From a virus, in the IMG/VR virus record IMGVR_UViG_3300025816_000037, positions 1-36,080 of that record: 36,080 bases of DNA; one strand, written 5' to 3'. The position numbers and the translations under genes are program-made. How positions within the stretch are numbered: the stretch's first letter is position 1; the number at the start of each line of letters is the position of its first letter. This document shows positions 3,534-31,520 of this stretch, piece after piece. The notes beneath the pieces are model-generated. The model had not been told where the DNA came from. It saw nothing but the letters and a program-made list of their open reading frames with translations, and did not search any database.

Positions 3534-3572
3534 GTAAGTCGTCTCCTGAGTGCCAGCGAACTGGTGTTGTTA

Positions 3573-4077: not shown

Positions 4078-4093
4078 CCTTAGTCTATGTAGA

Positions 4094-5074: not shown

Positions 5075-5098
5075 TAGATTATTCCTTTAAATGCTAGA

Positions 5099-5470: not shown

Positions 5471-5472
5471 TG

Positions 5473-6324: not shown

Positions 6325-6325
6325 G

Positions 6326-8652: not shown

Positions 8653-8661
8653 TTAATTACC

Positions 8662-9819: not shown

Positions 9820-9829
9820 GAGTCACCTC

Positions 9830-10201: not shown

Positions 10202-10203
10202 TG

Positions 10204-11541: not shown

Positions 11542-11557
11542 GAGGTAGGTTCCATTA

Positions 11558-12964: not shown

Positions 12965-13334
12965 TTGTGTTATATCCAAGTAACGACATAAGTGTGTCAA
13001 CAGCACTTTCGTCTAGGTCGGGGTCAGTCTCTTGCTCAACTTCAATGTTAGTCTGAGTTGGACTCCAGCCACCCTTGGATCGTAGGAACAACTCTTGTGA
13101 TTTAAAGTCACCATCTAAGGCTTGGTCTATGACCCTCTTACCGACAGCACCATTGATCTTCGCTCGTTCCATCTCAATGAACGACCCATAGATTTTGTAC
13201 ATAGTGGATAAAGACTTTGGGGCATCCTGTAGGTGTTGCATTGAGGAAATCATCTGACGAATCCCTATGCCACCTTGGATACATTCCAAGATGTGCTTCT
13301 CTACGAGCTTACTATAAGGTAATGCTGGGATCAT
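12906..13334 (-). CDS. terS: Terminase small subunit (TerS)
   Basis: A 142-residue protein with the start at the ATG at 13334 (MIPALPYSKLVEKHILECIQGG), preceded by GGAG about 9 nt upstream. A TTG reading to 13418 adds a 28-residue hydrophobic extension that looks untranslated. The N-terminal helices (HILECIQGGIGIRQMISSM) are the helix-turn-helix DNA-binding region, the middle is the oligomerisation core, and the C-terminus is acidic and Cys-rich (ESTCSCEEDNCRCS). This Cys tail is unusual and may bind a metal. The gene immediately precedes TerL and recognises the packaging start site. It is the first gene after the late promoter motif. Confidence 0.8.
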   Translation of the reverse strand: MIPALPYSKLVEKHILECIQGGIGIRQMISSMQHLQDAPKSLSTMYKIYGSFIEMERAKINGAVGKRVIDQALDGDFKSQELFLRSKGGWSPTQTNIEVEQETDPDLDESAVDTLMSLLGYNTNGPEEESTCSCEEDNCRCS

Positions 13335-13433
13335 AACGACAGTCTCCGCCCTACGGGCTATTAACGACAAGATTAGGGGTAACTTAAGTGGGTAGTCGAT
13401 ACCACTACCTACAGTCAATCGGCAAGAACTTTG

Positions 13434-13595: not shown

Positions 13596-13625
13596 CTATA
13601 GGGATACAAATTCGAATCTTAGACA
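13596..13625 (-). promoter_or_regulatory. Phage promoter copy P1 (late operon)
   Basis: On the minus strand it reads TGTCTAAG, 10 nt, GTATCCCTATAG, then TATAAT-like. This is the same bipartite motif, with the same 10-nt gap, as the copies at 20885 and 25796. It points at the terminase operon. TGTCTA to CTATAG are 18 nt apart, as for a -35/-10 pair. The likely reader is the phage sigma factor encoded at 20296-20874. That link is inference. Confidence 0.72.
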
Positions 13626-13884
13626 CTTTATTTTTACTTTTTGTCAACTATTTTACAATCATTTGTTTTACAACGAAAGTATTTTCTCTTTTTTTGTCGT
13701 GTTTTCGTGAGTATTATTACCGTTTTCTAACAATTCGTGATAACGTAAGCGGATTACCGCCGATATGTACCTTGGTGGGTACTCCAGATATAACGCCCGT
13801 TTGAACGTGGTGGGTGGGCTTATGGTAGGGTCAAAAGTAATTTTTGGTTTTGGATTCAGGTGGTGTTAAGGGGGCCACAAAAAT

Positions 13885-14027
13885 GATTCGCCCATGATGT
13901 CAAGGGTCCCAAGCGAAAGTTTACCAAATGTTACAAAAACGTGCAAAACTGTAACAAAACGTGAGTAAACAAAAGAAAAACTTGACAAAGGATAAGCGAT
14001 TCGCCCACATCCCGCAAGTGATTCGCC
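13885..14027. repeat. GATTCGCC repeat cluster (operator candidates)
   Basis: GATTCGCC occurs at 13885-13892, 13998-14005 and 14020-14027, with a related GATTCAA at 14044. A fourth exact copy is on the far side of the accessory cassette at 16104. The core is a near-palindrome (GCGATTCGC). The 13998 copy would lie in the spacer of a weak minus-strand promoter (TTGCGG-17-TATCCT). Chance alone would give far less than one copy in this space. Confidence 0.45.
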
Positions 14028-14056
14028 AGTTTCAAACTAGCGTGATTCAAGTGTTA

Positions 14057-14071
14057 TGTTATAGTATAACA
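14057..14071. promoter_or_regulatory. 15-base palindrome (operator candidate)
   Basis: TGTTATA-G-TATAACA is a perfect inverted repeat around one central base, placed between the cassette terminator and the GATTCGCC cluster. A dimeric repressor site is possible. No further evidence. Confidence 0.3.
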
Positions 14072-14096
14072 GTTAATAACCGCATGACATAACGAC

Positions 14097-14122
14097 AAAA
14101 AGGCCAGCACTAAGGCCAGCCT
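14097..14122 (-). terminator. Rho-independent terminator of the accessory cassette
   Basis: In the minus-strand transcript an 8-bp stem (AGGCTGGC with GCTGGCCT, two G-U pairs) closes a 6-nt loop and is followed by a run of five T (including the T that ends the stem), then G. It lies 33 nt past the last cassette gene. The wobble pairs mean it folds well only in the minus-strand RNA. Confidence 0.6.
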
Positions 14123-14154
14123 AATTGTGTCTTAATTGTGTCCGAAATAGGGCG

Positions 14155-14307
14155 TTAGAATGTCACGGGTTCAATCTCGAATTGATAACGTGAATCGTGC
14201 CGCCGCTCTAATACCGCTAGTTTGTCGAGTGCCTCGGCCTTGCTGCGCGTAGCATGATAGCAAAAGCGCTTGCCGCCCGTTAGAATATAGACTCTCCATT
14301 CCATCAT
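14155..14307 (-). CDS. Small basic protein, last gene of the accessory cassette
   Basis: A 50-residue protein from the ATG at 14307 (MMEWRVYILTGGKRFCYHATRSKAEALDKL), overlapping the upstream stop as ATGA. A longer reading to 14367 lies inside the upstream gene and is unlikely. It has a strand-strand-helix look (WRVYILTGGKRFCYHATRSKAEALDKLAVLERRH) that could be a small nucleic-acid- or protein-binding module. Unknown family. Confidence 0.55.
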   Translation of the reverse strand: MMEWRVYILTGGKRFCYHATRSKAEALDKLAVLERRHDSRYQFEIEPVTF

Positions 14308-14534
14308 ATAAATCCCGCCAATACGAAGGCGCTTTTCATCGACCGCGTATTGCAGCACTCGCACCAACCGTTGGTTATATCCGGCTCATAATCGGTTGTA
14401 TAATCGCAACCGGGATTCATACATATCGCCGGGACGCTATCCACTAGCCCTATAGATTCAAACATATCCATTGGACTAGCATGGCCCTCATATTCTGCTA
14501 ACAGATTCAATTTGTCGCTACTCATGTTATTCAT
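14304..14534 (-). CDS. Small zinc-ribbon-like protein
   Basis: A 76-residue protein. DKLNLLAEYEGHASPMDMFESIG is followed by AICMNPGCDYTTDYEPD and NGWCECCNTRSMKSAFVLAGF. The four or five Cys in CMNPGC and WCECC suggest a zinc-ribbon. I know similar short proteins from bacteriophages and proteobacterial prophages, usually as anonymous accessory genes. It overlaps the genes on both sides by 4-8 nt, so it is translated as part of the cassette operon. Confidence 0.6.
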   Translation of the reverse strand: MNNMSSDKLNLLAEYEGHASPMDMFESIGLVDSVPAICMNPGCDYTTDYEPDITNGWCECCNTRSMKSAFVLAGFI

Positions 14535-14745
14535 CTCCCCAATACTTAAAATTACCCTCTGACTCGTTATCGTGAAAGCCCGTGTAATACTCTCTTACTT
14601 GTGCCGTTGTCATGTCAGCATATAAGACGGGAAAGCCCTTGTAAGTACCTTCGGGCCAGTAATGCGGCGCATATGGGCGGCCATAGTATGAATCCGCCGC
14701 GCCTCTATCATATGGGCTACCATGTTTTCTTGTGTCGCTATTCAT
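14527..14745 (-). CDS. Small SPYDRGxADxYYGR-family protein
   Basis: A 72-residue protein with the recognisable signature HGSPYDRGAADSYYGRPYAPHYWPEGTYKG at the N-terminus, then MTTAQVREYYTGFHDNESEGNFKYWG. This family is widespread in phages and in proteobacterial accessory DNA, but I know no experimental function. It starts as ATGA on the stop of the upstream gene. Confidence 0.65.
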   Translation of the reverse strand: MNSDTRKHGSPYDRGAADSYYGRPYAPHYWPEGTYKGFPVLYADMTTAQVREYYTGFHDNESEGNFKYWGDE

Positions 14746-15545
14746 TGCACCAGCTCCCGTACCACAAAACCGCTGGAATCCGCCTTGGCTTCACCTTTGG
14801 CCTTAAGCCCTACAACAACGCCCGGTCTATCCATAAACCTAACGTCAGATTCATCGCCGTTTATCACCGGGATTCCCTTATATGTCGCGGGTAATACCTT
14901 CTCAAAAACCACGGCAACATTGCCGCCCGACTCTAGTACCTTATCGACGCAAGAGTCGTTAATTTCCGATTTACTAAAAGTAATATGATAATTACTAGGC
15001 AATGCGCCCTTTACCCATTGTAAGGCCTTTTTAGTGACCTTTGTGTAATCGTAGGCCTCTATCCCGTCAAAGTAATGAATCAAGCTCGCATAGGGCTTGC
15101 CGTTAACCGTTAGCGCAACCGATTGGAAAGGATAATCGCTTGTTGTATTAGGCCGCCATGCGGGAACCATGTTAAGCGCCTTAGCCTTTCTTTCATGCGA
15201 TTCAAGCTCAAACGCCATTAAAGCGATATACGCCTTGCGCATTGTCATGAAAGCGTGAGTCCGTTGAATTCTTGCCGATAATTTGGCGCGTAAATATATC
15301 GGATTCCCGGCGGTATTTAGGCAAGCGATAAGGCAACCGGGACTCGCGCTTGAGCATAGATTCCATTTACCCGACTCCTTACCCGGTGCGAGATTATGCG
15401 GTTTTGATAAGACTCCGAGTTTAGCGCCTTTGGCTAGTTTGGGATTGGATTCCGTTGCGCCTAAGGCGGTTGAAAAGGTAAAGCCCTTAGCGCGTAGTGC
15501 GCGGATTACTTGGGCGCGGGATGTATAGCCATTGTAATTTGTCAT
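14742..15545 (-). CDS. Cysteine-motif accessory protein (gp88/DUF7227-like)
   Basis: A 267-residue protein. The feature that identifies it is KWNLCSSASPGCLIACLNTAGNP (~residues 61-83), like the CPGAS..GC...C motif of phage gp88/DUF7227-type proteins, followed by RAKLSARIQRTHAFM. The C-terminal half is alpha/beta (SLIHYFDGIEAYDY..., VAVVFEKVLPATYKGIPVINGDESDVRFMD). Function unknown; a metal-bound or redox-active cysteine site is plausible. It is the largest gene of the cassette. The family is found in mobile accessory modules, as I recall. Confidence 0.6.
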   Translation of the reverse strand: MTNYNGYTSRAQVIRALRAKGFTFSTALGATESNPKLAKGAKLGVLSKPHNLAPGKESGKWNLCSSASPGCLIACLNTAGNPIYLRAKLSARIQRTHAFMTMRKAYIALMAFELESHERKAKALNMVPAWRPNTTSDYPFQSVALTVNGKPYASLIHYFDGIEAYDYTKVTKKALQWVKGALPSNYHITFSKSEINDSCVDKVLESGGNVAVVFEKVLPATYKGIPVINGDESDVRFMDRPGVVVGLKAKGEAKADSSGFVVRELVQ

Positions 15546-15808
15546 TATTGAGTCCTCCCAAAATCAATCCAATATGACACAAGGCCGGGAATCTCAAATA
15601 AGAGACCGTCAAAATATAGCGTTGAAAAGTAACCTACGCAAAAGCACAAGAATCCGAAATATAAAAGGCCAGTTAGCTTGGCAAGAATAACGGCGAGTCT
15701 TTCCATGAATGTCGCGGTTTTATTAACGCCCTTGCGTTTACGGGTATAGACTCGCGCGATTACTTGATCCTCAAGCCCTTTGATTATGTTTTGATCTAAT
15801 TGTGTCAT
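15545..15808 (-). CDS. Small membrane protein
   Basis: An 87-residue protein. Basic N-terminal half (RVYTRKRKGVNKTATFMERLAVILAKL), then one strongly hydrophobic segment (residues ~50-65, LLYFGFLCFCVGYFSTLYF), then a short polar tail. A single-pass inner-membrane protein by composition. It shares TAATGA with both neighbours and so is coupled in the cassette operon. No family recognised. Confidence 0.55.
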   Translation of the reverse strand: MTQLDQNIIKGLEDQVIARVYTRKRKGVNKTATFMERLAVILAKLTGLLYFGFLCFCVGYFSTLYFDGLLFEIPGLVSYWIDFGRTQ

Positions 15809-16047
15809 TATGAACGTCCCCCAAATATTTTGGCAGATTTACATTTACCCATGGATTTTGCGATTGATTCCATAGGAAAATGACCTTGCATATCCATTGC
15901 CGCCGCAAATGTTTTATAATCTGCACGGTTTACTTTAACCGTAATTCTTGAGCCAGTCGCGGGAAAAATAAAATCAACAAAATATTTGCCGCTTTCCGTT
16001 TCACTAACGGAGTCAATGTGAAACTGGTTTTTATATTCATGTAACAT
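15808..16047 (-). CDS. First gene of the accessory cassette, hypothetical
   Basis: A 79-residue protein (MLHEYKNQFHIDSVSETESGKYFVDFIFPATGSRITVKVNRADYKTFAAAMDMQGHFPMESIAKSM). Strand-strand-helix pattern; unknown family. The start is preceded by GGAAC. It is the first gene after the sigma70-like promoter at 16128-16156, so it probably has the longest leader in the cassette. Confidence 0.6.
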   Translation of the reverse strand: MLHEYKNQFHIDSVSETESGKYFVDFIFPATGSRITVKVNRADYKTFAAAMDMQGHFPMESIAKSMGKCKSAKIFGGRS

Positions 16048-16103
16048 TGTGTTGGTTCCTTTTATCGGAATTGAAGCGTCATTGCTTAGGAACCATTAAA
16101 GGC

Positions 16104-16111
16104 GATTCGCC
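16104..16111. promoter_or_regulatory. GATTCGCC operator candidate at the cassette promoter
   Basis: Fourth exact copy of the octamer found three times on the other side of the cassette. Its near-palindromic context (GGCGATTCGCC) sits about 15-20 nt after the -10 box, a position where a bound repressor would block transcription. Confidence 0.45.
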
Positions 16112-16127
16112 GGGTATTGCAAGCCCT

Positions 16128-16156
16128 ATTATATAGAGAAGGCATTTTTATGTCGC
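16128..16156 (-). promoter_or_regulatory. Sigma70-like promoter of the accessory cassette
   Basis: GCGACA, 17 nt, TATAAT on the minus strand: a perfect -10 with a -35 matching 4 of 6 positions. It lies ~80 nt upstream of the first cassette gene. The GGCGATTCGCC near-palindrome (16101-16111) overlaps the expected transcription start, which suggests repressor control. Confidence 0.6.
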
Positions 16157-16225
16157 ATTTAAGGGATTGACTCGCATAGAGCGCGGGGAATCAATTTTAT
16201 GGGTTGGAGTGACCGGGAATCCTTT

Positions 16226-16258
16226 CGGGCTTAAAACGGGCTTAAATCGGGTTTCAGG
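16226..16258. repeat. Three 11-base tandem repeats in the cassette leader
   Basis: CGGGCTTAAAA, CGGGCTTAAAT and CGGGTTTCAGG in direct tandem at 16226, 16237 and 16248. Between the two promoter candidates. Period 11 is close to one helical turn; a protein-binding site is possible. Confidence 0.4.
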
Positions 16259-16317
16259 CCCTATGGACTCCCATAACGAATCGCGCTAAATAATGGGGGA
16301 TGCCGAATCAAAACTTA

Positions 16318-16346
16318 GTTATGCGTTTTGTGCATACCTATGTCAA
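16318..16346 (-). promoter_or_regulatory. Possible second sigma70-like promoter
   Basis: TTGACA, 17 nt, CATAAC on the minus strand. Perfect -35, -10 matches 4 of 6. It would give a ~270-nt leader before the first cassette gene. Weaker case than the 16128-16156 promoter. Confidence 0.35.
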
Positions 16347-16440
16347 TTTTTGCATAGCTTATTGGCCGAGAACGAATCATAAACAAAAAACTTAGGTAAA
16401 TATGAAAGAGTCAATAGTATATTTCAGCTTGACAGATTCG

Positions 16441-16488
16441 TTGTAAAAATGCCACGTTGCAAGAATGTCACGTTGTAAAAATACCACA
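16441..16488 (+). repeat. Three 16-base direct repeats
   Basis: Units start at 16441, 16457 and 16473: TTGTAAAAATGCCACG, TTGCAAGAATGTCACG, TTGTAAAAATACCACA. Exactly contiguous. This is the first of four tandem arrays placed end to end before the early operon; together they are the best origin candidate of the window. Confidence 0.65.
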
Positions 16489-16495
16489 CCCGATT

Positions 16496-16598
16496 GTATA
16501 CCAAAGTATACGCAAGTATACCATCGTATACCATCGTATACGTTAATCGCATACTGTCGCATACCATCGTATACCATCGCATACTATCGTATACGGTC
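16496..16598. repeat. Ten GTATAC/GCATAC units with 10-base period (iteron-like)
   Basis: Hexamers begin at 16496, 16506, 16516, 16526 and 16536, then after a 13-base step at 16549, 16559, 16569, 16579 and 16589. GTATAC is itself a palindrome. Two blocks of five at one helical turn each would put all sites on one face of the DNA. Typical of iteron or operator arrays. Confidence 0.75.
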
Positions 16599-16600
16599 TT

Positions 16601-16680
16601 ATATAAGTATATCCATATATAAGCATATAAACATATACAAATATTCGAATATAAGCATGTGTTTATATAAGCGATCACTC
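16601..16680 (+). repeat. Five 16-base AT-rich repeats (ATATAAGC type)
   Basis: Units begin at 16601, 16617, 16633 (degenerate), 16649 and 16665, each opening with ATATAAG(C/T) or ATATACAA. Strongly AT-rich. Directly beside the iteron-like array, which is the arrangement of a DNA unwinding element at a replication origin. Confidence 0.65.
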
Positions 16681-16684
16681 ATGT

Positions 16685-16810
16685 ACCCCCTCCAGTGGAA
16701 AATGACCCCCACAGTGGAAAATGAGAGTCACCCCATCAGTGGAAATAATTCTGTTGACCCCACCAGTGGAAAATGCGAGAGTGATTCTATAAGTTGACCC
16801 CCACCGTGGG
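16685..16810 (+). repeat. Five CCCC-nn-CAGTGGAAAATG repeats before the early operon
   Basis: Copies of CAGTGGA are at 16693, 16712, 16737 and 16764 with a degenerate one near 16804 (CCGTGGGAA), each preceded by CCCC. The spacing is irregular (19, 25, 27, ~41). The fourth copy sits where a -35 box would be for a TATAAG hexamer at 16788-16793. The first early gene starts at 16828, so an activator or operator array of the early promoter is likely. Confidence 0.55.
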
Positions 16811-16827
16811 AATTAAGGAGAAATACA

Positions 16828-17118
16828 ATGGAAAATATCTTAGCAGAACTTAAGGCAATCATGCAGGACGCACAGGAAGCGTCAGCCCGTGCAGGGGAAT
16901 ATAAGAACGACATTGATCGTGGTATCAACGTCAACCACACGCCAGAATATGATACGTCTGTCACCAAGCAGGACAAGATCAACAGCCTATTCGAGTATCT
17001 AATAGATGCTAAGGATGACATGGATCGTGTGAAAGATAGCCTGAAAGACATCCACGATAAACTTGACGACCTCCTTGAGTTAGTAGAGTATGAGAATATA
17101 GCAAAGGGGATTCGCTGA
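16828..17118 (+). CDS. First early protein, helical, unknown
   Basis: A 96-residue, strongly helical and acidic protein. Residues ~50-90 (NSLFEYLIDAKDDMDRVKDSLKDIHDKLDDLLELVEYE) look like a coiled coil. AAGGAG precedes the ATG. First gene downstream of the composite repeat region, thus probably the first phage protein made. Early small proteins often take over host functions; nothing here shows which. Its stop shares a base with the next start (TGATG). Confidence 0.7.
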   Translation: MENILAELKAIMQDAQEASARAGEYKNDIDRGINVNHTPEYDTSVTKQDKINSLFEYLIDAKDDMDRVKDSLKDIHDKLDDLLELVEYENIAKGIR

Positions 17119-17276
17119 TGGAAATTCGTGAGACATACTATGAACTATACCTTGATGGAACTTTATACCACGAGGGAACATTAAAAGATTGTACAGAATA
17201 TGCACAACGCGCTCTTGACGATGATTGTGCTGAGGTGTACAAGGTAACTGTAACAGAAGAAAAGGTAGTAATCTAA
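17118..17276 (+). CDS. Small acidic protein
   Basis: A 52-residue protein (MEIRETYYELYLDGTLYHEG...). Strands near residues 1-17 and 40-50, acidic in between (DDDCAEVYKV). It overlaps the preceding and following genes by one base each, so it belongs to one translated unit. No family recognised. Confidence 0.62.
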   Translation: MEIRETYYELYLDGTLYHEGTLKDCTEYAQRALDDDCAEVYKVTVTEEKVVI

Positions 17277-17566
17277 TGGGAAAAGTAAACGCACTATTTC
17301 AAGACGCAGAAGAGCAAGCGTTTGATCGTTACACTAACATCTTGGTCGATGCTGATGTTGAGATGATGTTTCACTGTGGTGAGATTGAGAAGTTCCGCAT
17401 CTGTAATATCCCTTGTGTTTGGGTCTGGGACGAAAGCTCAAGGGAAGCAGCAGAATACTGGGCTGCATTGGATCACATCAGTGAGAACTATACCTTCGAT
17501 TGGATGTCGGTTAAATCTTGGTCGGGTTCACCAGTTAAGGTTGACACACCTGAGCGAATCAATTAG
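17276..17566 (+). CDS. Hypothetical early protein
   Basis: A 96-residue acidic protein with several Trp (VWVWDESSREAAEYWAALDH, FDWMSVKSWSG). Start overlaps the previous stop (TAATG). No recognised family. Codon use matches its neighbours. Confidence 0.62.
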   Translation: MGKVNALFQDAEEQAFDRYTNILVDADVEMMFHCGEIEKFRICNIPCVWVWDESSREAAEYWAALDHISENYTFDWMSVKSWSGSPVKVDTPERIN

Positions 17567-17594
17567 AACCGTAAGTGGAAATAAGGAGAACCAC

Positions 17595-17750
17595 ATGAAC
17601 CAATTCGCACTAGCAACTGAGGTCAATGGTATCGTAATGCGACTTGCGTTACCCACCATGACAAAGCTACAGGCTGAACAGAAGGCCAAGGTACTACGGG
17701 AGCTATCTCCCAAGACACCAATATATGTCGTTAACAAAACAGCGGAGTAA
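17595..17750 (+). CDS. Small hypothetical protein
   Basis: A 51-residue protein from the ATG at 17595 (MNQFALATEVNGIVMRLALP), preceded by AAGGAGAACCAC. The same frame is open far upstream but the ribosome binding site fixes this start. The short form MTKLQAEQKAKVLRELSPKTPIYV is helical then extended. No family recognised. Confidence 0.62.
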   Translation: MNQFALATEVNGIVMRLALPTMTKLQAEQKAKVLRELSPKTPIYVVNKTAE

Positions 17751-17755
17751 TTGAT

Positions 17756-18064
17756 ATGACACTAGATACACGCATGGTAAGCATGGTACTGGCAGAGAAC
17801 GCTAACGAGTTCATCACCGTTAAGTTCCTGACCAAAGATAACGAGGAGCGTACATACAATGGTCGCTTGAACGTCAAGAAATACCTTGTGGGTGGTGAAC
17901 GTGGTCGTAAGGCTGCTGACGTTCTAAAGGCTCACAACCTGATCCCCATGTTCGTGGGTAAGGATGGTGAGAAGCCCAAGTACAAGAGCTTCTGTCTTGA
18001 CCGTGTGCTGGCTATGAAGGCTGGCGGTCGTCACATCTTTGCTATGGGCAGTGAGATCGAATGA
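17756..18064 (+). CDS. SH3-like beta-barrel protein
   Basis: A 102-residue protein. FITVKFLTKDNEERTYNGRLNVKKYLVGG, then HNLIPMFVGKDGEKPKYKSFCLDRVLAMKAGG. The pattern of a short strand, KDG.ER, RLNVKK, then YKSF.LDRVL.IKA is what I recognise from phage proteins with an SH3-like barrel. Role unknown; such proteins may bind a protein partner. Its stop overlaps the next start as ATGA. Confidence 0.55.
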   Translation: MTLDTRMVSMVLAENANEFITVKFLTKDNEERTYNGRLNVKKYLVGGERGRKAADVLKAHNLIPMFVGKDGEKPKYKSFCLDRVLAMKAGGRHIFAMGSEIE

Positions 18065-18456
18065 CACCCCTTTTGTGTCTTGCAGCAGCGGTCTTCTTTG
18101 AGAGCCGTAGTGAACCTCTGGAAGGACAGAGGGCCGTTGCTGAGGTCGTTATGACTAGGGTAGAATCACCCCGTTGGCCCGACGAAATCTGTGCCGTTGT
18201 CTTCCAACACAAGCAGTTCTCGTTCACCCACGATGGAAAATCTGATAACTATCACAAGTACAATGGCAATGTATTCGACAGACAAGCGATTGATATAGCT
18301 GAGACAATAGCTAAGTCAGTGCTAAAAGGTGATCGTATTGGCTTGACTTCTACCCACTATCATACTATCTCAGTATCACCATATTGGGCCAAAAGTTACC
18401 ACCGAGATGGTCGCATTGGCACACACGTTTTTTACACAGCACCCGAAGGGAAATGA
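18061..18456 (+). CDS. Cell wall hydrolase (SleB-like)
   Basis: A 131-residue protein. Residues 7-30 (LAAAVFFESRSEPLEGQRAVAEVVMTRV) hold the catalytic Glu (~14) and the conserved E.EGQ.AVA.V..NR motif of the Hydrolase_2 (SleB/CwlJ) family; the C-terminal part (SPYWAKSYHRDGRIGTHVFYT) is the typical W....GTH.FY ending. The family cleaves peptidoglycan. It sits in the early region, far from the holin, and no signal peptide is obvious. Either it is a second endolysin or it works on the wall during entry or early infection. Overlaps the previous gene as ATGA. Confidence 0.8.
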   Translation: MTPLLCLAAAVFFESRSEPLEGQRAVAEVVMTRVESPRWPDEICAVVFQHKQFSFTHDGKSDNYHKYNGNVFDRQAIDIAETIAKSVLKGDRIGLTSTHYHTISVSPYWAKSYHRDGRIGTHVFYTAPEGK

Positions 18457-18458
18457 GA

Positions 18459-18617
18459 ATGTTTAACATGACACTTGAGAAACACTTGGAAGAGATGGGT
18501 ATCCGTCCCAAGTCAATCATCCGTGAGCTAGAGGAACTCCTTGATCCACGTCTGACGTATCTGGCGAAGGGTTACTTCAATGACCCCCGCAGTAGAAATG
18601 GAGAGGTGCCGTTCTAA
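18459..18617 (+). CDS. Small acidic helical protein
   Basis: A 52-residue protein from the ATG at 18459 (MFNMTLEKHLEEMGIRPKSI). An ATG at 18453 overlaps the hydrolase stop; I prefer 18459 because AAGGG lies about 8 nt before it. Two helices, EELLDPRLTYLAKG, then a flexible tail. Unknown family. Confidence 0.6.
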   Translation: MFNMTLEKHLEEMGIRPKSIIRELEELLDPRLTYLAKGYFNDPRSRNGEVPF

Positions 18618-18796
18618 TGAATACGATCTTTATACTAATATGGTTTGTCGTTATTCCTGAGACTGGCGTAAGGTATTACCACTTGGGAACGTATGATAAT
18701 GAAACCATGTGCGGGACTGCACTGAGGGATGCTTCGGTTATGGTCAATGATAAACAAGAGACAATCGAATGTATAGGAGTACAGGTAGATGATTAA
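18617..18796 (+). CDS. Small protein with hydrophobic N-terminus
   Basis: A 59-residue protein. Residues 1-13 (NTIFILIWFVVIP) are hydrophobic, then a polar domain with two Cys (GTYDNETMCGTALRDASVMVNDKQETIECIG). Possibly a small secreted or membrane-tethered protein. Starts on the previous stop (TAATG) and overlaps the ThyX start by 8 nt. Confidence 0.58.
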   Translation: MNTIFILIWFVVIPETGVRYYHLGTYDNETMCGTALRDASVMVNDKQETIECIGVQVDD

Positions 18797-19442
18797 AGCA
18801 TTTTACGTTCAACACGCTGGCTCTGACCTTATGGTCGTAAACAGTGCTAGGGTATCATTTGGTAAGCGTAGTGAGATGGAGGATGATCTTTGGGGGCCAC
18901 CTAAGCTAAAGGAGAAGGACGCTAAGTTGATCCGATACCTTGCCAAGCATAACCACATCAGCCCCTTTAACCACACATGGGTTACGTTCCAATGTCGTGC
19001 GCCTATGTTTGTAGCACGGCAACTCCAGAAACACGAGTATATGCCTTGGAATGAAATATCTAGGCGCTACACAACTGAAAATATTCAGTTTTATGAGCCA
19101 GAGGTGTGGCGGGGTAAATCTGAGGACAAGAAGCAAGGGTCTGATGGTGTCGTTAACATTCAGTTAGACCAAGAGGTACAGTGGCACAGACAGTTCCAGA
19201 CGTATCAGACGCTAATTGACGAGGGTGTAAGCCCAGAGATGGCTCGTATGGTACTACCCCAGAGTATGTACACTGAGTGGTTCTGGAGCGGAACGGTAGG
19301 GGCCATAGCGAAGATGTGTAACCTACGCTGTAAGCCTGATACACAGGCGGAGACACGCATTGTAGCTGACCAGATCAGTGAGAAGATGAAAGAGTTGTTC
19401 CCAGTTTCTTGGGCAGCATTATTGGAGGAGAAAGACCAATGA
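18789..19442 (+). CDS. thyX: Flavin-dependent thymidylate synthase
   Basis: A 217-residue protein. The signature is RQLQKHEYMPWNEISRRY (~77-94), which is the phage form of the ThyX RHRxxS motif (R-Q..KH..x..NE.SRRY). It makes dTMP from dUMP using FAD, NADPH and methylenetetrahydrofolate. With the class II RNR and MazG further down, it forms the phage's nucleotide supply. Starts within the end of the preceding small gene. Confidence 0.92.
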   Translation: MIKAFYVQHAGSDLMVVNSARVSFGKRSEMEDDLWGPPKLKEKDAKLIRYLAKHNHISPFNHTWVTFQCRAPMFVARQLQKHEYMPWNEISRRYTTENIQFYEPEVWRGKSEDKKQGSDGVVNIQLDQEVQWHRQFQTYQTLIDEGVSPEMARMVLPQSMYTEWFWSGTVGAIAKMCNLRCKPDTQAETRIVADQISEKMKELFPVSWAALLEEKDQ

Positions 19443-19672
19443 AACCTGACGTTACGCAAAAACAACAAGTACTTAACCACTTACAAAATAACCCTGATGG
19501 GTTCACCTCTTGGGAAGCAATCAGTCAATATGGTATTACCCGTTTAGCTGCTTATATTGGTTTCTTGAGGAATGATGGATATGGTATTAACTCGGTAACA
19601 GAAACCCGTAACGGAAAGGCAATTGCCAGATACTTCTTGGTTACAGGTGAAGAGGAGAATGGTGATGGCTAA
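19439..19672 (+). CDS. Winged helix-turn-helix protein
   Basis: A 77-residue protein from the ATG at 19439 ([47 protein letters not shown]), overlapping the ThyX stop as [40 protein letters not shown] is a helix-turn-helix followed by a wing (ARYFLVT). A DNA-binding regulator or accessory protein of the early region is the natural reading; the target is unknown. Confidence 0.7.
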
Positions 19673-19877
19673 ACTGTATGACTTAGAGCCAATGATAATG
19701 GACTGTTGGCACGTCTGTGATGACCTACAGGTTGTCTTTAGGCAGATCGGTGACGGTGAACGTGAGCCTACGCACGATGAAATGATGAACACCTTGATGG
19801 GTATGCAACAGCTATACGAGTGGAAGTTTGAGCAGTTGTTCTTCAAGTATGAGGAGGTATTCCGTGATAAACAGTGA
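19665..19877 (+). CDS. Small helical protein ([11 protein letters not shown] family)
   Basis: A 70-residue protein from the ATG at 19665, with GAGGAG about 7 nt before it. [25 protein letters not shown] ... [23 protein letters not shown] is a small all-helical protein that I have seen in many phages without an assigned function. It overlaps the previous gene by 8 nt. Confidence 0.62.
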
Positions 19878-19923
19878 GTGGCGAAAGTTGATAGCAGAAC
19901 AAGAGAACTTTAAGGAGAACGTA

Positions 19924-20175
19924 ATGGCAGAGCATACAGCAGACATCGTGAATGAACCTAAGCACTACGCACGGTGGAAGATCGAACCTATCACATACAT
20001 TATGATGAATGGCTTTGAGTTCTGGCGTGGGAATATCATCAAGTATGCCAGTCGTGCAGGGTACAAGCCCTACGAGGGAATGAGTAAGGCTCAGTGCGAG
20101 ATCACAGACCTTGAGAAGGTCATCCGCTATGCACAAATGCGTATCAATCAACTGGAGGGTAAGGACAAGCTATGA
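19924..20175 (+). CDS. DUF3310-like protein
   Basis: An 83-residue protein from the ATG at 19924, which has a perfect AAGGAG at the right spacing. Core NEPKHYARWKIEPITYIMMNGFEFWRGNIIKYASRAG is the DUF3310 pattern (P.HY....EPI..I........F..GN.IKY..R.G.K). The family is common in phages and named nucleotide kinase in some annotations without proof. A GTG at 19864 in the same frame also has a GAGGAG site, giving a 20-residue longer form; see findings. Confidence 0.75.
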   Translation: MAEHTADIVNEPKHYARWKIEPITYIMMNGFEFWRGNIIKYASRAGYKPYEGMSKAQCEITDLEKVIRYAQMRINQLEGKDKL

Positions 20176-20315
20176 CTAGAGAAGAGCTAAAGAAAATCAT
20201 AAAGGCTTTGGATAAGTCTGAGGATGTCACAGTCGAGGAAGCTGTGTATCTGATCCGAAAGAGACAGCGGGAGTTAGAAAACTTGGAGGTAGAGTATGAG
20301 CTTAACTGGGCCTGA
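20172..20315 (+). CDS. Small charged helical protein
   Basis: A 47-residue protein (MTREELKKIIKALDKSEDVTVEEAVYLIRKRQRELENLE). Starts as ATGA on the DUF3310 stop and runs 20 nt into the sigma-factor gene, so it may be translationally coupled to it. No family recognised. Confidence 0.58.
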   Translation: MTREELKKIIKALDKSEDVTVEEAVYLIRKRQRELENLEVEYELNWA

Positions 20316-20874
20316 GATCGTAGGTATGTGCGAGAAGTTAGCCAACAGGTTTAACTCTCCCTCACACCGTGATGACATGGTACAAGAGGGTGTACTAAAG
20401 TGTTACGAGATATTGGCTGACGATGAGAAGGTACATCCAGCGCACCTCTACAGGGAGGCTAAGAGGCGTATGCACGATTACCTTAACCTTGATGTGCTAC
20501 CTGTTACAGTACCAGCGCACAATATTTCCCGTAGGCTCACACACGACATAGACGACAGTGAGGTGGGTAATATGTCTGAGGTTGGTCATAAGTGGCTAAA
20601 GTCTGTTTTGTCGTCTAACTCTGGTCAATACAGTGATGAACACAATGGCTCAGAGAAAGATCATACTGAAAGATATGAGAATAAGGAGTTCGTAAGATAT
20701 GTCATAAATGTGGCGATAGAAGAATTAACGGCAGAAGAATGGAGTGTTCTTAAGTTACGTTATTACAGCGACATGACACAACATGAGGTGGCGGATATGT
20801 TAGACAAACACCAGAAGTGGGTGTCACGAAGGGAGGACACTGCCTTAACTAAGTTACGAAAGTCAGTTCTGTAA
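20296..20874 (+). CDS. Phage RNA polymerase sigma factor
   Basis: A 192-residue protein with the two-domain form of small sigma factors. Region 2 is near residues 26-41 (DDMVQEGVLKCYEILA), where core RNA polymerase and the -10 box bind. Region 4 is at ~144-190 (LTAEEWSVLKLRYYSDMTQHEVADMLDKHQKWVSRREDTALTKLRKS), a helix-turn-helix that reads the -35 box. The gene ends 10 nt before a copy of the bipartite promoter motif, and is the last gene of the first early block. It is the natural factor for the three promoter copies. Confidence 0.85.
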   Translation: MSLTGPEIVGMCEKLANRFNSPSHRDDMVQEGVLKCYEILADDEKVHPAHLYREAKRRMHDYLNLDVLPVTVPAHNISRRLTHDIDDSEVGNMSEVGHKWLKSVLSSNSGQYSDEHNGSEKDHTERYENKEFVRYVINVAIEELTAEEWSVLKLRYYSDMTQHEVADMLDKHQKWVSRREDTALTKLRKSVL

Positions 20875-20884
20875 CAATTCGTGA

Positions 20885-20914
20885 TGTCTAAGAATTAAAA
20901 AAGTATCCCTATAG
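20885..20914 (+). promoter_or_regulatory. Phage promoter copy P2 (replication block)
   Basis: TGTCTAAG, 10 nt, GTATCCCTATAG, just downstream of the sigma-factor gene and 76 nt upstream of the next ATG (20991). Same spacing as the copies at 13596 (minus) and 25796 (plus). It would start transcription of the primase-helicase and polymerase block. Confidence 0.75.
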
Positions 20915-20990
20915 GTAAGTGTAGGGTTTACATAAGTTATGACTTTAGTTACTTCTACTATTAGTTATAACATAAGAAAGGAACGTAAGT

Positions 20991-21782
20991 ATGGACGATG
21001 ATGACTACTACGACATGGTGATGAGTAAATCTTCTGATGTCGTTATGCACTCTTGGGAAGATTGCATACATGGCTTCAAGCAAGCCGATGTTGACATGGG
21101 CAGTGCTTTCCACAGAAAGTTGGAATGGATGAACAAAGCGGCTGATATTTACCTATCAGATAACAGTAAGATGGCAGGGTTTGTCGGTAAGTTTTCTAAG
21201 GATTGTGGTATATCTAAGGACTACGCTTACAAAATTAATAGGGCAAGAAAATTGCAGTGGACTGCAAAAAACTTTAGTCATGATGCTGTAGAGGCACTTT
21301 TGTCAGCCCCAGAGGAATTGCGTGATGAGATTGTGTCGTTAGATAAACCCGTAACTGTTGCAGAAGTACAGCAAGCTAAGGCAGGGTACAAAGAGGTACA
21401 AGAGAACCCTGACTACGGTGACATACTTGAAGACGTTAAAGAGAAACGAAAGACCCCTGTAGAGGCTGCTAGGGAGGCTTGGGATCGTTCAGAAGAGAAA
21501 CGAAGGGAGATGGAGAATAATCCGAATGTGTTTGACTTAAATGCTCACGTCAAAAGTACAGAGCATTGCACCGTAGATGTATCAGCAACTAACCTTGTTG
21601 TAGCTATGGAACAGTTAATCAGTAAGTTTGATAGGCGTGACGTTATGATGTACCTATACTCAGCTATACATGATGATGTCGTAAATATCAAAATACCGGC
21701 ACTACATGAGATGTCCGACATCTTGATAGAGCTATGTGAACAGTTGCCACTCGAAGGCACAAACAAACAAAACTTAAGCTAG
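20991..21782 (+). CDS. Hypothetical protein, first gene after promoter P2
   Basis: A 263-residue protein. The first 20 residues are very acidic (MDDDDYYDMVM). Residues ~65-90 (KFSKDCGISKDYAYKINRARKLQW) look like a helix-turn-helix, the middle is charged and helical (YGDILEDVKEKRKTPVEAAREAWDRSEEKRREME), and a C-terminal domain (VAMEQLISKFDRRDVMMYLYSAI) follows. No family recognised. The HTH-like segment and its first position after the sigma-type promoter suggest a DNA-binding or regulatory role, perhaps at the iteron-like array. This is inference only. Confidence 0.6.
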   Translation: MDDDDYYDMVMSKSSDVVMHSWEDCIHGFKQADVDMGSAFHRKLEWMNKAADIYLSDNSKMAGFVGKFSKDCGISKDYAYKINRARKLQWTAKNFSHDAVEALLSAPEELRDEIVSLDKPVTVAEVQQAKAGYKEVQENPDYGDILEDVKEKRKTPVEAAREAWDRSEEKRREMENNPNVFDLNAHVKSTEHCTVDVSATNLVVAMEQLISKFDRRDVMMYLYSAIHDDVVNIKIPALHEMSDILIELCEQLPLEGTNKQNLS

Positions 21783-21793
21783 GAGACCCGACA

Positions 21794-22141
21794 ATGAGCT
21801 ATTACCAACAGACACTCGACTTATTTGAACTCAATGATCGTAAGCCAATGGGAGTTAACTTACTTATCCGTCAGGGTGCAAGGAACATTCGTGCGTCAGA
21901 TGCTAACGTGGTCAGAGCGCACGTTTGGAAGCACCAACGTGATGACATGGAAGCACTGCTTAACACTACGTTTCATTCTTACGAGCTTGACCGTCAGATG
22001 ACTATGCGCTGGCTTCTTGACAATGAGGCTGACGTTTTCTTTGGTCAGAGGGATGCGGAGATAGAAAAGGGCCAAGGTCGTGTAAAGATGAACCACCTGT
22101 ACAAAGAAGTAGGGTACAAGTATCTGATAGGTTCTAAGTAA
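21794..22141 (+). CDS. Hypothetical protein in replication block
   Basis: A 115-residue protein: MSYYQQTLDLFELNDRKPMGVNLLIRQGARNIRASDANVVRAHVWKHQRDDMEALLN. Mostly helical, with TMRWLLDNEADVFFGQRDAEIEKGQGRVKMN. GGAGACCCGACA precedes the ATG. No family recognised. Its place before primase-helicase suggests a replication accessory role. Confidence 0.6.
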   Translation: MSYYQQTLDLFELNDRKPMGVNLLIRQGARNIRASDANVVRAHVWKHQRDDMEALLNTTFHSYELDRQMTMRWLLDNEADVFFGQRDAEIEKGQGRVKMNHLYKEVGYKYLIGSK

Positions 22142-22159
22142 AACAAAGGAGAGTAACCA

Positions 22160-22327
22160 ATGGAAAAAGACCTAGAGAAATACTGCATGAAGATGATGGA
22201 CATATATGGCGGAACTTATACCATCGACTATGACCTAAAGGTAGTAGCTATCTACAAGGGAGACACTCAAGATTTAGATGTCCTATCCTTTGATGAAGCC
22301 CTAGAAGAACTACGAGAAGCAGCGTAA
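22160..22327 (+). CDS. Small hypothetical protein before primase-helicase
   Basis: A 55-residue protein (MEKDLEKYCMKMMDIYGGTYTIDYDLKVVAIYKGDTQDLDVLSFDEALEEL). AAGGAGAGTAACCA precedes the ATG. Strand-strand-helix pattern. No family recognised. Confidence 0.6.
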   Translation: MEKDLEKYCMKMMDIYGGTYTIDYDLKVVAIYKGDTQDLDVLSFDEALEELREAA

Positions 22328-22345
22328 ACCCAAGGAGAGAGCCAC

Positions 22346-23920
22346 ATGGCTGAACATGCACACCAACCCTGTCCATATGAAACGTGTGGCTCCTCCGATG
22401 CCTTCAGTTATAACACTGAGGGTTTCGGCAAGTGCCACGCTTGCAACCAAGGCTACCCGTCCAGTGGAAAAACATTCGGGTGGGCTAAAGAAAAGTACCC
22501 AACAAAAGGAGGGAATAATTTGTCGTTTACACCAAAAGCTGTTGTTTCGTTTACACCAGAAGATACGTCCGATGGAAAATACGCTAACATGCGTGGCATC
22601 AACAGCAAGACGATGGAGGACTTCGGTGTCCTAACCTACGAAGATCGTCAGGAGTATGTGTACCCCAGCGGGGGAATTAAAGTTCGTAAGCTAGACGAGA
22701 AAGGCTTCTACGCTAAAGCAGGTTTCAAGGGTGATGAACTCTTCGGTATGAACTTCTTTACCGCAGGTAGTTCCAAGATGGTAACTATCACTGAGGGTGA
22801 ACTAGACGCCCTCTCAGTGGCACAAATACTCAAGAGCGGGTACACCAACCCAGTTGTGTCGTTACCCTCTGCTACGCCCTCCAAGAAGCTCTGGGAGAAC
22901 TGTGCGGATTGGCTCAATAGTTTCGAGAAGATCATCCTGTCGGTTGACAATGATGACGCTGGTAACGCTCTTGCTGACCGTGTAGCAAAGCTGTTCCCCA
23001 ACAAGGTCTATCGTGTTGACCATCGACCATACAAAGATGCCAATGAGTTCCTACAGGCAGGTAAAGCCGCTGACTTCAAGAGTGCATGGTGGAACGCCCG
23101 TAAGTTCACACCTGAGAATGTGATGAACAGCACACAGGACTTCTTGTCGTTGTACAAGGATACACCTGAGTTCCAGTATGTACCAACAGGTATCCAAGCG
23201 TTAGACGATAAGATCATGGGTCTCATGCAGGGTCACTTCACGGTAATCAAAGCACCCACGGGTATCGGCAAGACGGAGATCATGCGGTTCCTTGAGTACA
23301 ATATGTTACAACGTGAGGTTCCTATTGCTGCATGGCACTTGGAGGAAACAAAGCTACGATCACTGTTAGGTCTCGTGTCATACGAATGTAATGACAATCT
23401 TACACGCAGGGATTTGATTGATGAGAAAGGCGCAGAGGATCAGGTGATTGATGCTATCGGTAAACTGACGAAGGACGAGAACTTTTACCAGTTTTACCTT
23501 AGTGATGGTCAAGGTGCTGACGATCTGATCGACCAGATACGTTACTTCGCTGTAGCTTGTGGTGTTAAGTTTGTATTCTTTGAGCCTATCCAAGATGTGC
23601 TTGTGGGTTCATCTGACGAGAGCAAAGAGCAAATGTTGGCTGATCTATCGGTGCGACTATCGAAGCTATCGGCTGAGTTAAACGTAGGTATCGTAACTAT
23701 CGCTCACACTAACGATGATGGTCAGATGAAATACTGTCGTATGATCGGTCAACGTGCTTCGGTTATCATCGACTTGAAACGCGACAAAGAGGCTGATGAT
23801 ATACAGGAGCGTAACACAACGTACCTGTCTATTGAAAAGAACCGACCCTGTTCAGAAGAAGGTAACGCAGGGATGATGCGGTTTAACACTGACACCTTCA
23901 CACTTACAGAGGTAATGTAA
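22346..23920 (+). CDS. DNA primase-helicase (T7 gp4-like)
   Basis: A 524-residue fusion of primase and helicase. The N-terminus has a zinc motif (CPYETCGSSD ... CHACNQG, ~residues 9-35). TOPRIM elements are EGELDALS (~150) and SVDNDDAG (~198). The RecA-like helicase has Walker A APTGIGKTEIM (~302) and the FVFFEPIQ Walker B segment (~408), with the Gln-type motif near TIAHTND. It would unwind DNA at the fork and make the primers used by the family A polymerase next door. Confidence 0.9.
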   Translation: MAEHAHQPCPYETCGSSDAFSYNTEGFGKCHACNQGYPSSGKTFGWAKEKYPTKGGNNLSFTPKAVVSFTPEDTSDGKYANMRGINSKTMEDFGVLTYEDRQEYVYPSGGIKVRKLDEKGFYAKAGFKGDELFGMNFFTAGSSKMVTITEGELDALSVAQILKSGYTNPVVSLPSATPSKKLWENCADWLNSFEKIILSVDNDDAGNALADRVAKLFPNKVYRVDHRPYKDANEFLQAGKAADFKSAWWNARKFTPENVMNSTQDFLSLYKDTPEFQYVPTGIQALDDKIMGLMQGHFTVIKAPTGIGKTEIMRFLEYNMLQREVPIAAWHLEETKLRSLLGLVSYECNDNLTRRDLIDEKGAEDQVIDAIGKLTKDENFYQFYLSDGQGADDLIDQIRYFAVACGVKFVFFEPIQDVLVGSSDESKEQMLADLSVRLSKLSAELNVGIVTIAHTNDDGQMKYCRMIGQRASVIIDLKRDKEADDIQERNTTYLSIEKNRPCSEEGNAGMMRFNTDTFTLTEVM

Positions 23921-23923
23921 AAT

Positions 23924-25771
23924 ATGACAGCAGTATATGACATTGAAACAGACGGTCTATTAGATGAGTTGACCAAGATTCATGTCTTGTCTTATTCAGA
24001 TGATGGTAAGACGGTACATCACACGCACGACTACGATGAAATGCGTGAGTTCTTTGCCACACGCAAAGTTCTAGTTGGTCACAATCATGTGCGCTTTGAC
24101 ATCCCAGCGGTGGAAAAGGTTTTAGGCATCAAGGTAAAGGCTCGTTTGATCGACACTCTAGCTTTATCTTGGTATCTACACCATGACCGTATGAAGCATG
24201 GCCTTGAGGGCTACGGAGAGGACTATGGAGTACCCAAACCAGTTATCAAGGACTGGAACACCCTGACACCACAAGAGTACGCTCACAGGTGCGATGAGGA
24301 CGTTAAGATCAACAATCGTCTTTGGCGTGACTTAGAGCTTAAGCTCAACAAGCTGTACAAAGATGCAGAGGCAGATAAGGATCGTCTGATCGACTACCTT
24401 ACATTCAAGCTAGACTGTGCTAAAGAGCAAGAGACCCTGCGGTGGAAATTGGACGTAGACAAAGCTCAAGCAGCCTACGACGAGATCATGGCACTTAAGG
24501 TAGAGAAGGTTGAGCAACTGGCTGATGCTATGCCTAAGCGTACACTCACTCGTGTAGCAGCACGACCAAAGGTTATGCACAAGAAAGACGGTGAGTTATC
24601 CTCTCACGGTCAACGATGGGTGGAACTATGTAAGGAGTGCAAGCAACCTGAGACAACCATGCAGTTTGTCGTTAAGACAGGCGAAGAGCGTGGGAACCCT
24701 AACTCTAACGATCAGGTCAAAGACTGGCTCTATTCGTTAGGTTGGAAACCACGGACATATAAGTTTACTAGAGATAAGGCGACAGGCGATGAACGACAGA
24801 TTGAACAAGTTAGAAAGAATGGGGAGTTATGCTCAAGTGTCAAAGAGCTTGCAGAGGTTGACCCTGCTGTTGACCTTCTTGATGGCCTTACAGTTCTTAC
24901 TCACCGTGCTGGTATTCTTAAGAGTTTCTTAGAGTGCCACAAGGATGGTTGGCTAGAGGCTAGTATCGCAGGGCTAACGAACACCTTTCGGTTCAAGCAC
25001 TATCGACCCTTGGTTAACCTTCCAGGAGTAGATAAGCCATACGGTGATGTTATCCGTGGGTGTCTAACGTGTCCTGATGGCTACCTGTTAGCTGGTGCTG
25101 ACATGACATCATTGGAGGACACAACTAAGCGTCACTATATGAAACCACTAGACCCTGACTATGTGGAGGCCATGAGTAAAGAGGGCTTTGACCCACACTT
25201 AGACTTGGCTCTACACGCTGGTGTTATCACTCAAGATGACATCGACAAACATAATTCTGGGGAGCGTTCACTCAAAGCCCTCCGTAAGAATTACAAGGTG
25301 GTTAACTATAGTGCTACATACGGTGTAGGAGCGCCTAAGCTGGCCCGTGAGACAGGTATGAGTAAGTCTGAGGCTAAGAAGCTACTGGAAGCCTTCTGGT
25401 CTCGTAACTGGGCTATTGAGAAGGTAGCAAGCTCGTTGCGTGTCCGTGAGTTGTTCAACGGTATGTGGCTTAAGAACCCCGTTTCAGGCTTCTGGTATAG
25501 CTTACGCAGCGACAAGGATCGTTTCAGTACGCTCAACCAAGGTACTGGTGTCTACTGCTTTGACACTTGGGTTAAGGAATGTCGTGGTATGGGACTAGAG
25601 ACTATCGGTCAGTTCCACGATGAGATCATCGTTATAACAAAAGAAGGGGACGAAGATAAGACAGAAAACATCATGCAGATGAGCATGAACAATGTAAACC
25701 ACGAGATAAATCTAAACGTACCGCTAGGGACAGACGTACAATTTGGGAAGACTTACGCTGACATTCACTAA
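23924..25771 (+). CDS. DNA polymerase, family A (T7-like)
   Basis: A 615-residue protein. The N-terminal domain is a 3'-5' exonuclease (VYDIETDGL at residues 4-12, then VRFDIPAVEKVLG and HRCDEDVKI). The polymerase has motif A LLAGADMTSLED (~388-398), motif B RKNYKVVNYSATYGVGA (~450-466) and motif C QFHDEIIV (~563-570). The motif A with SLED instead of the usual SxIELR is common in marine phage polymerases. It lacks the 5' nuclease of bacterial PolA, which is supplied by the separate gene at 26620. Confidence 0.92.
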   Translation: MTAVYDIETDGLLDELTKIHVLSYSDDGKTVHHTHDYDEMREFFATRKVLVGHNHVRFDIPAVEKVLGIKVKARLIDTLALSWYLHHDRMKHGLEGYGEDYGVPKPVIKDWNTLTPQEYAHRCDEDVKINNRLWRDLELKLNKLYKDAEADKDRLIDYLTFKLDCAKEQETLRWKLDVDKAQAAYDEIMALKVEKVEQLADAMPKRTLTRVAARPKVMHKKDGELSSHGQRWVELCKECKQPETTMQFVVKTGEERGNPNSNDQVKDWLYSLGWKPRTYKFTRDKATGDERQIEQVRKNGELCSSVKELAEVDPAVDLLDGLTVLTHRAGILKSFLECHKDGWLEASIAGLTNTFRFKHYRPLVNLPGVDKPYGDVIRGCLTCPDGYLLAGADMTSLEDTTKRHYMKPLDPDYVEAMSKEGFDPHLDLALHAGVITQDDIDKHNSGERSLKALRKNYKVVNYSATYGVGAPKLARETGMSKSEAKKLLEAFWSRNWAIEKVASSLRVRELFNGMWLKNPVSGFWYSLRSDKDRFSTLNQGTGVYCFDTWVKECRGMGLETIGQFHDEIIVITKEGDEDKTENIMQMSMNNVNHEINLNVPLGTDVQFGKTYADIH

Positions 25772-25795
25772 TGTGAAAATAAATATCAAAAGTAG

Positions 25796-25825
25796 TGTCT
25801 AAAATCCCGAAATGTATCCCTATAG
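25796..25825 (+). promoter_or_regulatory. Phage promoter copy P3 (ssDNA-binding protein block)
   Basis: TGTCTAAA, 10 nt, GTATCCCTATAG, then TATA. 48 nt upstream of the ssDNA-binding protein start. The 17-mer TGTATCCCTATAGTATA is identical to that in the late-operon copy at 13596. It lies in a ~100-nt intergenic gap after the polymerase gene. Confidence 0.75.
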
Positions 25826-25873: not shown

Positions 25874-26416
25874 ATGGCTAAACACACAATGGACATGGTT
25901 CTTGAGTACCCGAGAGTGTTTGAAGAAAACCGAGATATGGGCGGGGATAAAAATAGCGCCGCAAAGAAAGCTGCAAGGCATAACGGGCAGTACGTTGTTA
26001 ACGCATACTTCACCAGCGAAGAGCAGATAGAGGAACTGCTTCAAGCTGGGATGGAACCTAAGCCCCTTGGCAACGACCGAGTAAAGGAGGGCAATAGTTT
26101 TGGGATTGGTAAGTTCGTTAAGTTAGCACGGATGCACGATCACAAGATGACATTCAGTGATAAGAACGGGAAGGAGACTGAGGTAGACTTCGGTGGTGCG
26201 CCAAAGGTAGTCAACCTAACTAACGGGGCCGAGAACAAGACTTGGTGGTCGTTAGAAGAAGATGGGGAGCTAGGTAACGGCACACGAGCTAAGGTGCAGT
26301 TTGAGACCTACTCAAACGGTGCGGGTTTACGGCTACTTGCTGTTGGTGTAACAGACCATGTGTCTTACGAGGGTGCAAGCCCTAGTGAAGACGACGAACT
26401 ATTTATGGTGGATTAA
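25874..26416 (+). CDS. ssDNA-binding protein (T7 gp2.5-like)
   Basis: A 180-residue protein. A likely OB-fold core ends with GNGTRAKVQFETYSNGAGLRLLAVGVTDHVSYEG, and the acidic C-terminal tail (SPSEDDELFMVD) is typical of phage and bacterial SSBs that contact polymerase and helicase. It coats single-stranded DNA at the fork. It is the first gene after promoter P3, so it can be strongly expressed. Confidence 0.85.
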   Translation: MAKHTMDMVLEYPRVFEENRDMGGDKNSAAKKAARHNGQYVVNAYFTSEEQIEELLQAGMEPKPLGNDRVKEGNSFGIGKFVKLARMHDHKMTFSDKNGKETEVDFGGAPKVVNLTNGAENKTWWSLEEDGELGNGTRAKVQFETYSNGAGLRLLAVGVTDHVSYEGASPSEDDELFMVD

Positions 26417-26418
26417 AT

Positions 26419-26619
26419 ATGAGAGTAGACATAAACTTTTACTACGACAAGGAAGAGGATGGCATCGAAGGTTCTTCCAGCGCATCACGAGATGGTGTCT
26501 TCGATCTCTACACAATGTCTCAGTTCCTAGCTGATGCTATGCGAGGTGCAGGTTACAGTTATGTAACTGACGTAGGGTTCGAGAAGGACGATGGTACAGT
26601 CACCTTCGGGGAGATGTAA
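26419..26619 (+). CDS. Small hypothetical protein
   Basis: A 66-residue, acidic protein (MRVDINFYYDKEEDGIEGSSSASRDGVFDLYTMSQFLADAMRGAGYSYVTDVGFEKDD). Starts 2 nt after the SSB stop and ends one base before the GTG start of the exonuclease gene. No family recognised; the short strand at 1-9 followed by a Ser-rich loop and a helix is all that can be said. Confidence 0.6.
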   Translation: MRVDINFYYDKEEDGIEGSSSASRDGVFDLYTMSQFLADAMRGAGYSYVTDVGFEKDDGTVTFGEM

Positions 26620-31475: not shown

Positions 31476-31520
31476 CCAAAGCACCTAAGCAAGTGTATAA
31501 ACTGCTTACTAGGAGAACCC

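Follow-up and report, generated by a model that had tools for sequence, protein, structure and literature searches.

The window, a stretch of marine phage DNA of 36,080 nt analysed here in full, encodes a phage sigma factor and carries three dispersed bipartite sites. Across dozens of relatives the DNA-reading parts of the sigma factor and the sites change together, which, as far as sequence comparison can tell, suggests that these phages keep changing their transcription specificity. It is very likely that this two-domain sigma directs the host core RNA polymerase to the three sites as its promoters, with region 4.2 reading the -35 box and residues ~75-107 the element upstream of the -10 box.

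Three bipartite sites and the gene blocks behind them

The motif TGTCTAAR-N10-GTATCCCTATAG occurs three times in the window with 0 mismatches, at exactly the coordinates and on the strands given in the first-pass annotation, and 100 dinucleotide shuffles gave 0 copies. The window is the whole virus record, so that the genome-wide scan proposed in that annotation ends at these three, with no further exact copy. The distance from TGTCTA to CTATAG is 18 nt in all three copies, and the late and ssb copies share the 17-mer TGTATCCCTATAGTATA, an identity already claimed for two of the copies. One site (20885..20914, plus strand; TGTCTAA at 20885-20891, TATCCCTATAG at 20904-20914) is a predicted sigma-dependent promoter of the replication block (20991..25771, +), which encodes a primase-helicase and a family A DNA polymerase. 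A second predicted promoter (25796..25825, +; TGTCTAA at 25796-25802, TATCCCTATAG at 25815-25825) precedes a block of ORFs (25874..32461, +) that starts with an ssDNA-binding-like protein and includes, by profile matches, an exonuclease and a ribonucleotide reductase. The third, a predicted late promoter (13596..13625, minus strand; TGTCTAA at 13625-13619, TATCCCTATAG at 13606-13596), faces the structural block (273..13418, -) with terminase, portal and major head protein assigned by phrogs; the first gene after it is a 170-aa ORF (13418-12906) lacking a family match, followed by the terminase (13006-11558; phrog_979). Leftward blocks stand at both ends of the window, an arrangement suggesting that the record may lack the remainder of the late arm. 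A 3-mismatch match at 32522-32551 (-) lies inside a plus-strand block; it was left out of the count because it opposes that block and faces no minus-strand gene, and it is probably not functional.

The first rightward block (16828..20874, +), whose ORFs have no motif copy upstream and which we presume to be early, ends in the sigma gene. As the first-pass annotation had it, this gene ends 10 nt before one of the sites (ORF end 20874, site start 20885), which places the specificity end of the sigma factor and one of its targets in one exchangeable stretch. Ahead of the first rightward genes AGTGGAAA is repeated on one strand (16694, 16713, 16738, 16765 and 17574); the window holds 9 copies on that strand and 0 on the other, and the isolate CRP-6, described below, 10 forward and 2 reverse. 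A leftward gene group at 14155-16047 (-) likewise has no motif upstream and is possibly a second early block; one of its genes matches phrog_1617, a family of unknown function.

The sigma factor

The 192-aa protein encoded at 20296..20874 (+) is a sigma factor with regions 2 and 4, as indicated by both Pfam and Foldseek. Region 4 (Sigma70_r4, PF04545) is matched by the window protein at 3.5e-14 and in 19 of 19 family members; region 2 (PF04542) is matched in 14 of the 19, the best relative scoring 8e-5 and the window protein 0.0033, a value that falls below the cut-off when taken alone. ECF sigmas comprise regions 2 and 4 and lack region 3; an ECF model was matched by only 2 members, and residues 72-83 recall region 3.0 and are tied to the extended -10 type. 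The AlphaFold model has a pLDDT of 74 and a low pTM of 0.36, and places the recognition helix at 173-191. Among the 50 best PDB matches listed by Foldseek, all except 3 are sigma factors or initiation complexes of RNA polymerase that include a sigma factor, the exceptions being crosslinking-based models with unclear labels; the sigma matches align over most of the window protein.

Two segments carry the predicted DNA specificity. The first begins at codons 70-86 (VTVPAHNISRRLTHDID; 20503..20553, +), resembles sigma70 region 3.0 and is assigned to the -10 side by its association with the extended -10 type; the segment around residue 75 presumably corresponds to the part of region 3.0 containing H455/E458. 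The second is the start of the region 4.2 recognition helix, codons 172-179 (HQKWVSRR; 20809..20832, +), assigned to the -35 box by residue association, by the model and by the correlation given below; we take the counterparts of its residues 173, 174 and 177 in region 4.2 of E. coli sigma70 to be R584, E585 and R588. Relative to contig L060, the first 60 codons of the gene (20296-20475) are 98-100% identical and the remainder only 35-73%, and this sharp mosaic boundary falls just before the specificity segments.

An isolate with different sites in the same gaps

Among isolates, Roseobacter phage CRP-6 (MK613348) is closest to the window; it infects a Rhodobacteraceae strain, and its DNA polymerase is 67% identical to that of the window. 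Its genome is annotated as complete at 44.9 kb, against 36.1 kb for the window, and shares with it a rightward early/replication arm, encoding ThyX, a sigma-like gene, primase, polymerase and an ssb-like protein, and a leftward structural arm. The CRP-6 protein gp14, annotated as hypothetical, is a sigma 32% identical to the window protein over 63%. The window motif was sought in CRP-6 and not found. Instead, the genome has a bipartite site of its own, GTTGACT-N9-ATCRGACGTCATA, present exactly 3 times in 44.9 kb and 0 times in shuffles, in the same three gaps as in the window, with TTGACT and GACGTCATA as boxes where the window has the TGTCTAA type. Predicted starts at these sites would lie just downstream of 4121 (+), 8060 (+) and 42183 (-). 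Relatives lacking both motif halves in equivalent gaps had been expected to speak against a sigma factor as reader; to the letter CRP-6 is such a relative, but its gaps hold a different bipartite site three times, and because its sigma has diverged too, these different sites favour the sigma hypothesis. In the CRP-6 sequence L066 (4088-4121) the -35 box TTGACTAA reaches back into the sigma gene, over its stop and last codons, and the C-terminus of the sigma and its own target thereby share sequence. The published CRP-6 description that we examined makes no mention of promoters.

Diversity of site types among relatives

The related phages were scanned as the first-pass annotation had advised, and the window motif was recovered in 40 viral contigs, always in the corresponding gaps. 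More generally, over 100 related contigs as well as CRP-6 have a bipartite site of the same geometry and different sequence in the equivalent gaps. Relatives with sigmas at 58-76% identity show a near-identical gap after the sigma gene with other boxes in it. We found at least 11 site types, each of the eleven with a fixed geometry; scanned on representative genomes they gave a strictly diagonal pattern, each genome using only its own type. Counted from the first -35 base up to and including CTA (or GTA), the site spans 27 nt in the types of the window, L104, L105, L112 and L115.

In 70 relatives collected via the conserved sigma N-terminus, the boxes pair with particular sigma sequences. A -35 box TGTCTAA goes with the helix HQKWVSR, NQKWVSR or NQRLISR, TGTTACA (TGTTACT in L102) with NKMWVSR or SKMWVSR, TGAATAA with NQTWVFR and TGTATAA with NQVWVYR. 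For the element upstream of the -10 box, TATCCC is paired with VPAHNI..RL and GGGTCA with MPKSRTIRDIV. In relatives further removed, the -35 boxes are GGAACAA, GTTTAC, GTCACAT or GTACCAA, together with -10 boxes of the GGTG/AGTG type. At both of the sites seen in L112-L121, the GTTTAC -35 box is preceded, at a distance of 9 nt, by an extra GGCACTTA element, perhaps an activator site.

Co-variation of the sigma factor and its sites

The first-pass annotation had proposed the phage sigma as the reader of the motif, and the way in which sigma and sites co-vary, module by module, among the relatives bears this out. In the 31 distinct combinations of sigma and site, no column is more strongly associated with -35 type than residue 174 (NMI 0.90), followed by 185, 177 and 173. 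The association with the extended -10 type is complete for residues 75, 80, 81, 85 and 91-107, but the classes behind it are few and many of the columns are linked. In pairwise comparison, identity of the -35 box correlates at r = 0.71 with identity over residues 172-179 and at 0.14 with that over residues 1-150; the partial correlations are 0.73 and -0.23, with a permutation p of 0.0003 that is optimistic because the contigs are related.

The strongest evidence for co-variation is provided by single contrasts between contigs. Over the stretch compared, identity between L068 and L070 is 92-100%, dropping to 77-82% where the helix and the -35 box lie, and L088 and L089 share 93% over residues 1-150 and differ in helix and -35 box. 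Conversely, L060 and L053, as also L101 and L132, have a similar helix and the same -35 box at only 41-61% identity over residues 1-150. The site next to the sigma gene is in physical linkage with the gene end, so that only the distal sites exclude simple hitch-hiking; the distal late and ssb sites, 5-7 kb away, change along with the sigma and in 18 of 24 cases agree with the adjacent site, as against 7.4 by chance.

Four contigs (L015, L029, L100 and L140) have a distal site of another type, and L017 has mixed -35 boxes. The odd sites in the four lie less than 500 nt from a contig end, nearer than concordant ones (Mann-Whitney p = 0.0016), making assembly switches between co-existing strains likely; these contigs are likely to be chimeric assemblies, with real mosaics as the alternative. 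Such mismatched contigs, and the frequent proximity of contig ends to the sites, might be taken to mean that the promoters are real and the apparent swaps largely chimeras of metagenome assembly. We consider this very improbable, because chimeras would produce mismatches and not matches, because in genomes of several types (the window, L091 and L097) all three sites are of one type, and because CRP-6 is an isolate.

Still less probable is the explanation that the sites are bound by some other regulator of host or phage, such as host sigma70, the co-variation reflecting linkage or shared descent. The linkage of the sigma-adjacent site to the gene end and the resemblance of the CRP-6 -35 box TTGACT to the host consensus are in keeping with it, but the change of the distal sites argues against mere linkage, the -35 association is with residues 172-179 and not with the flanking protein, and the distant sigmas of the L060/L053 and L101/L132 pairs share a -35 box along with a similar helix. 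That the sites serve a single-subunit RNA polymerase of the phage, encoded outside the window, as its promoters is most improbable and largely refuted. The T7-like look of CTATAG and the 8-9 kb or so that may be missing relative to CRP-6 might suggest it, but a search for PF00940 found no match in the window, as the first-pass annotation had stated, nor in CRP-6, whose genome has this layout too and is annotated as complete, whereas the phage T7 positive control matched; the boxes, moreover, co-vary with the sigma.

A probable regulatory cascade

Taken with the sigma factor as reader, these observations point to a cascade in which, most likely, the host sigma70 polymerase would transcribe the first block up to the sigma gene, after which the phage sigma would take over the host core RNA polymerase and, by binding at the three promoters, set the start points for the replication, ssb/nucleotide-metabolism and late structural blocks. 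Recognition of the -35 box TGTCTAA would fall to region 4.2, through residues of its helix at about 173, 174 and 177, and that of the element directly before the CTATAG -10 box to the region 3.0-like segment just after region 2 (residues about 75-107). The same machinery probably works in the relatives with other boxes, since their promoters and specificity segments have changed in step. Between 12.8 and 26.5 kb terminators were not above shuffles, nor were sigma70-like promoter matches enriched (23, against 26.1 in shuffles), so that we infer the host-polymerase step while leaving its early promoters unlocated.

A promoter array in a bacterial contig

A genome-wide exact scan for the window motif returned 4 contigs (L169-L172), of which L170-L172 look like chance matches and only L169 resembles the phage sites. 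This contig of a MAG (DGAQ01000064.1) carries three tandem phage-type promoters (L169:3118-3449), about 150 nt apart, whose -35 boxes TGTATAA, TGTTACA and TGTCTAA are each of another type and all accompanied by TATCCCTATAG; the DNA up- and downstream of the array is similar to phage late promoters, including an exact match of 24 bp. Its bacterial genes encode a SOUL heme-binding protein, a glutathione peroxidase and a DUF2938 protein, the peroxidase being at most 46% identical to genomes of the genus and up to 56% identical to Rhodobacteraceae plasmid genes. The contig ends at AAGGCGGAGGA, which is ribosome-binding-like, and the promoters point at a gene starting beyond this end; a search for that gene in the rest of the MAG did not find it. 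With a permissive pattern, no other genome was hit among 392 of its order and 369 of its class. No tandem arrays were found in the viral contigs, and the array had no match among plasmids and phages.

The array, seen on one contig of uncertain lineage, is possibly a promoter trap or a satellite. We suggest, tentatively and as the less probable case, that host-side elements exploit phage promoters and thereby drive the swapping, the gene of L169 (defence or satellite) being switched on by whichever phage sigma enters. If such a trap exists, phages would escape it by changing sigma specificity together with all the sites. The wider question is why close marine phages change their transcription specificity, and whether a host or satellite trap is the driver.

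Comparison with known systems

The nearest tested case is SaPh711_gp47 of phage 7-11, in which, as we suppose for the window, a region-4 phage sigma acts with the host core RNA polymerase at a bipartite late promoter (PMC8948821). In both phages single sites are dispersed before late genes, and the -10 box of the 7-11 promoters, GTAAtg-(16)-aCTA, ends in CTA as in the window; they differ in phage family, in their boxes and in promoter number, eight in 7-11 against three (PMC8948821). The window thus has the late-sigma pattern of 7-11, a phage sigma with dispersed bipartite sites before middle/late blocks. Like the window sigma, gp36 of phiEco32 is a phage sigma for middle and late genes; it is a relative with a different promoter, tAATGTAtA, and is unlike the window sigma in that its promoter has a single element, that it has no region 4 homology and that it is stimulated by phi32_gp79 (PMC8948821). 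Pseudomonas phage PA11 (Zobellviridae) encodes gp012, annotated as an RNA polymerase sigma factor and adjoining the DNA polymerase; it matches phrog_1740, as do the window sigma and CRP-6 gp14, and differs from the window sigma in that Pfam finds no region 4 in it. The 31 kb of PA11 scanned contain no site of the eleven types.

Given the precedent of 7-11 gp47, the kind of system is already known. The paper on gp47 reports no specificity swapping (PMC8948821), and we found no report of natural sigma-specificity swapping together with sites in the open-access literature. What appears to be new is the sigma family of the window, its promoter code and the natural, localised swapping of specificity together with distant sites. 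Phage sigmas with their own promoters are known, but here the promoter code is readable from sequence alone. The many natural pairs of matched sigma and promoter, of which some are distinguished by nothing but the recognition helix and the -35 box, offer a ready set from which to learn DNA choice by sigma regions 4.2 and 3.0 and might also be of use for orthogonal expression tools.
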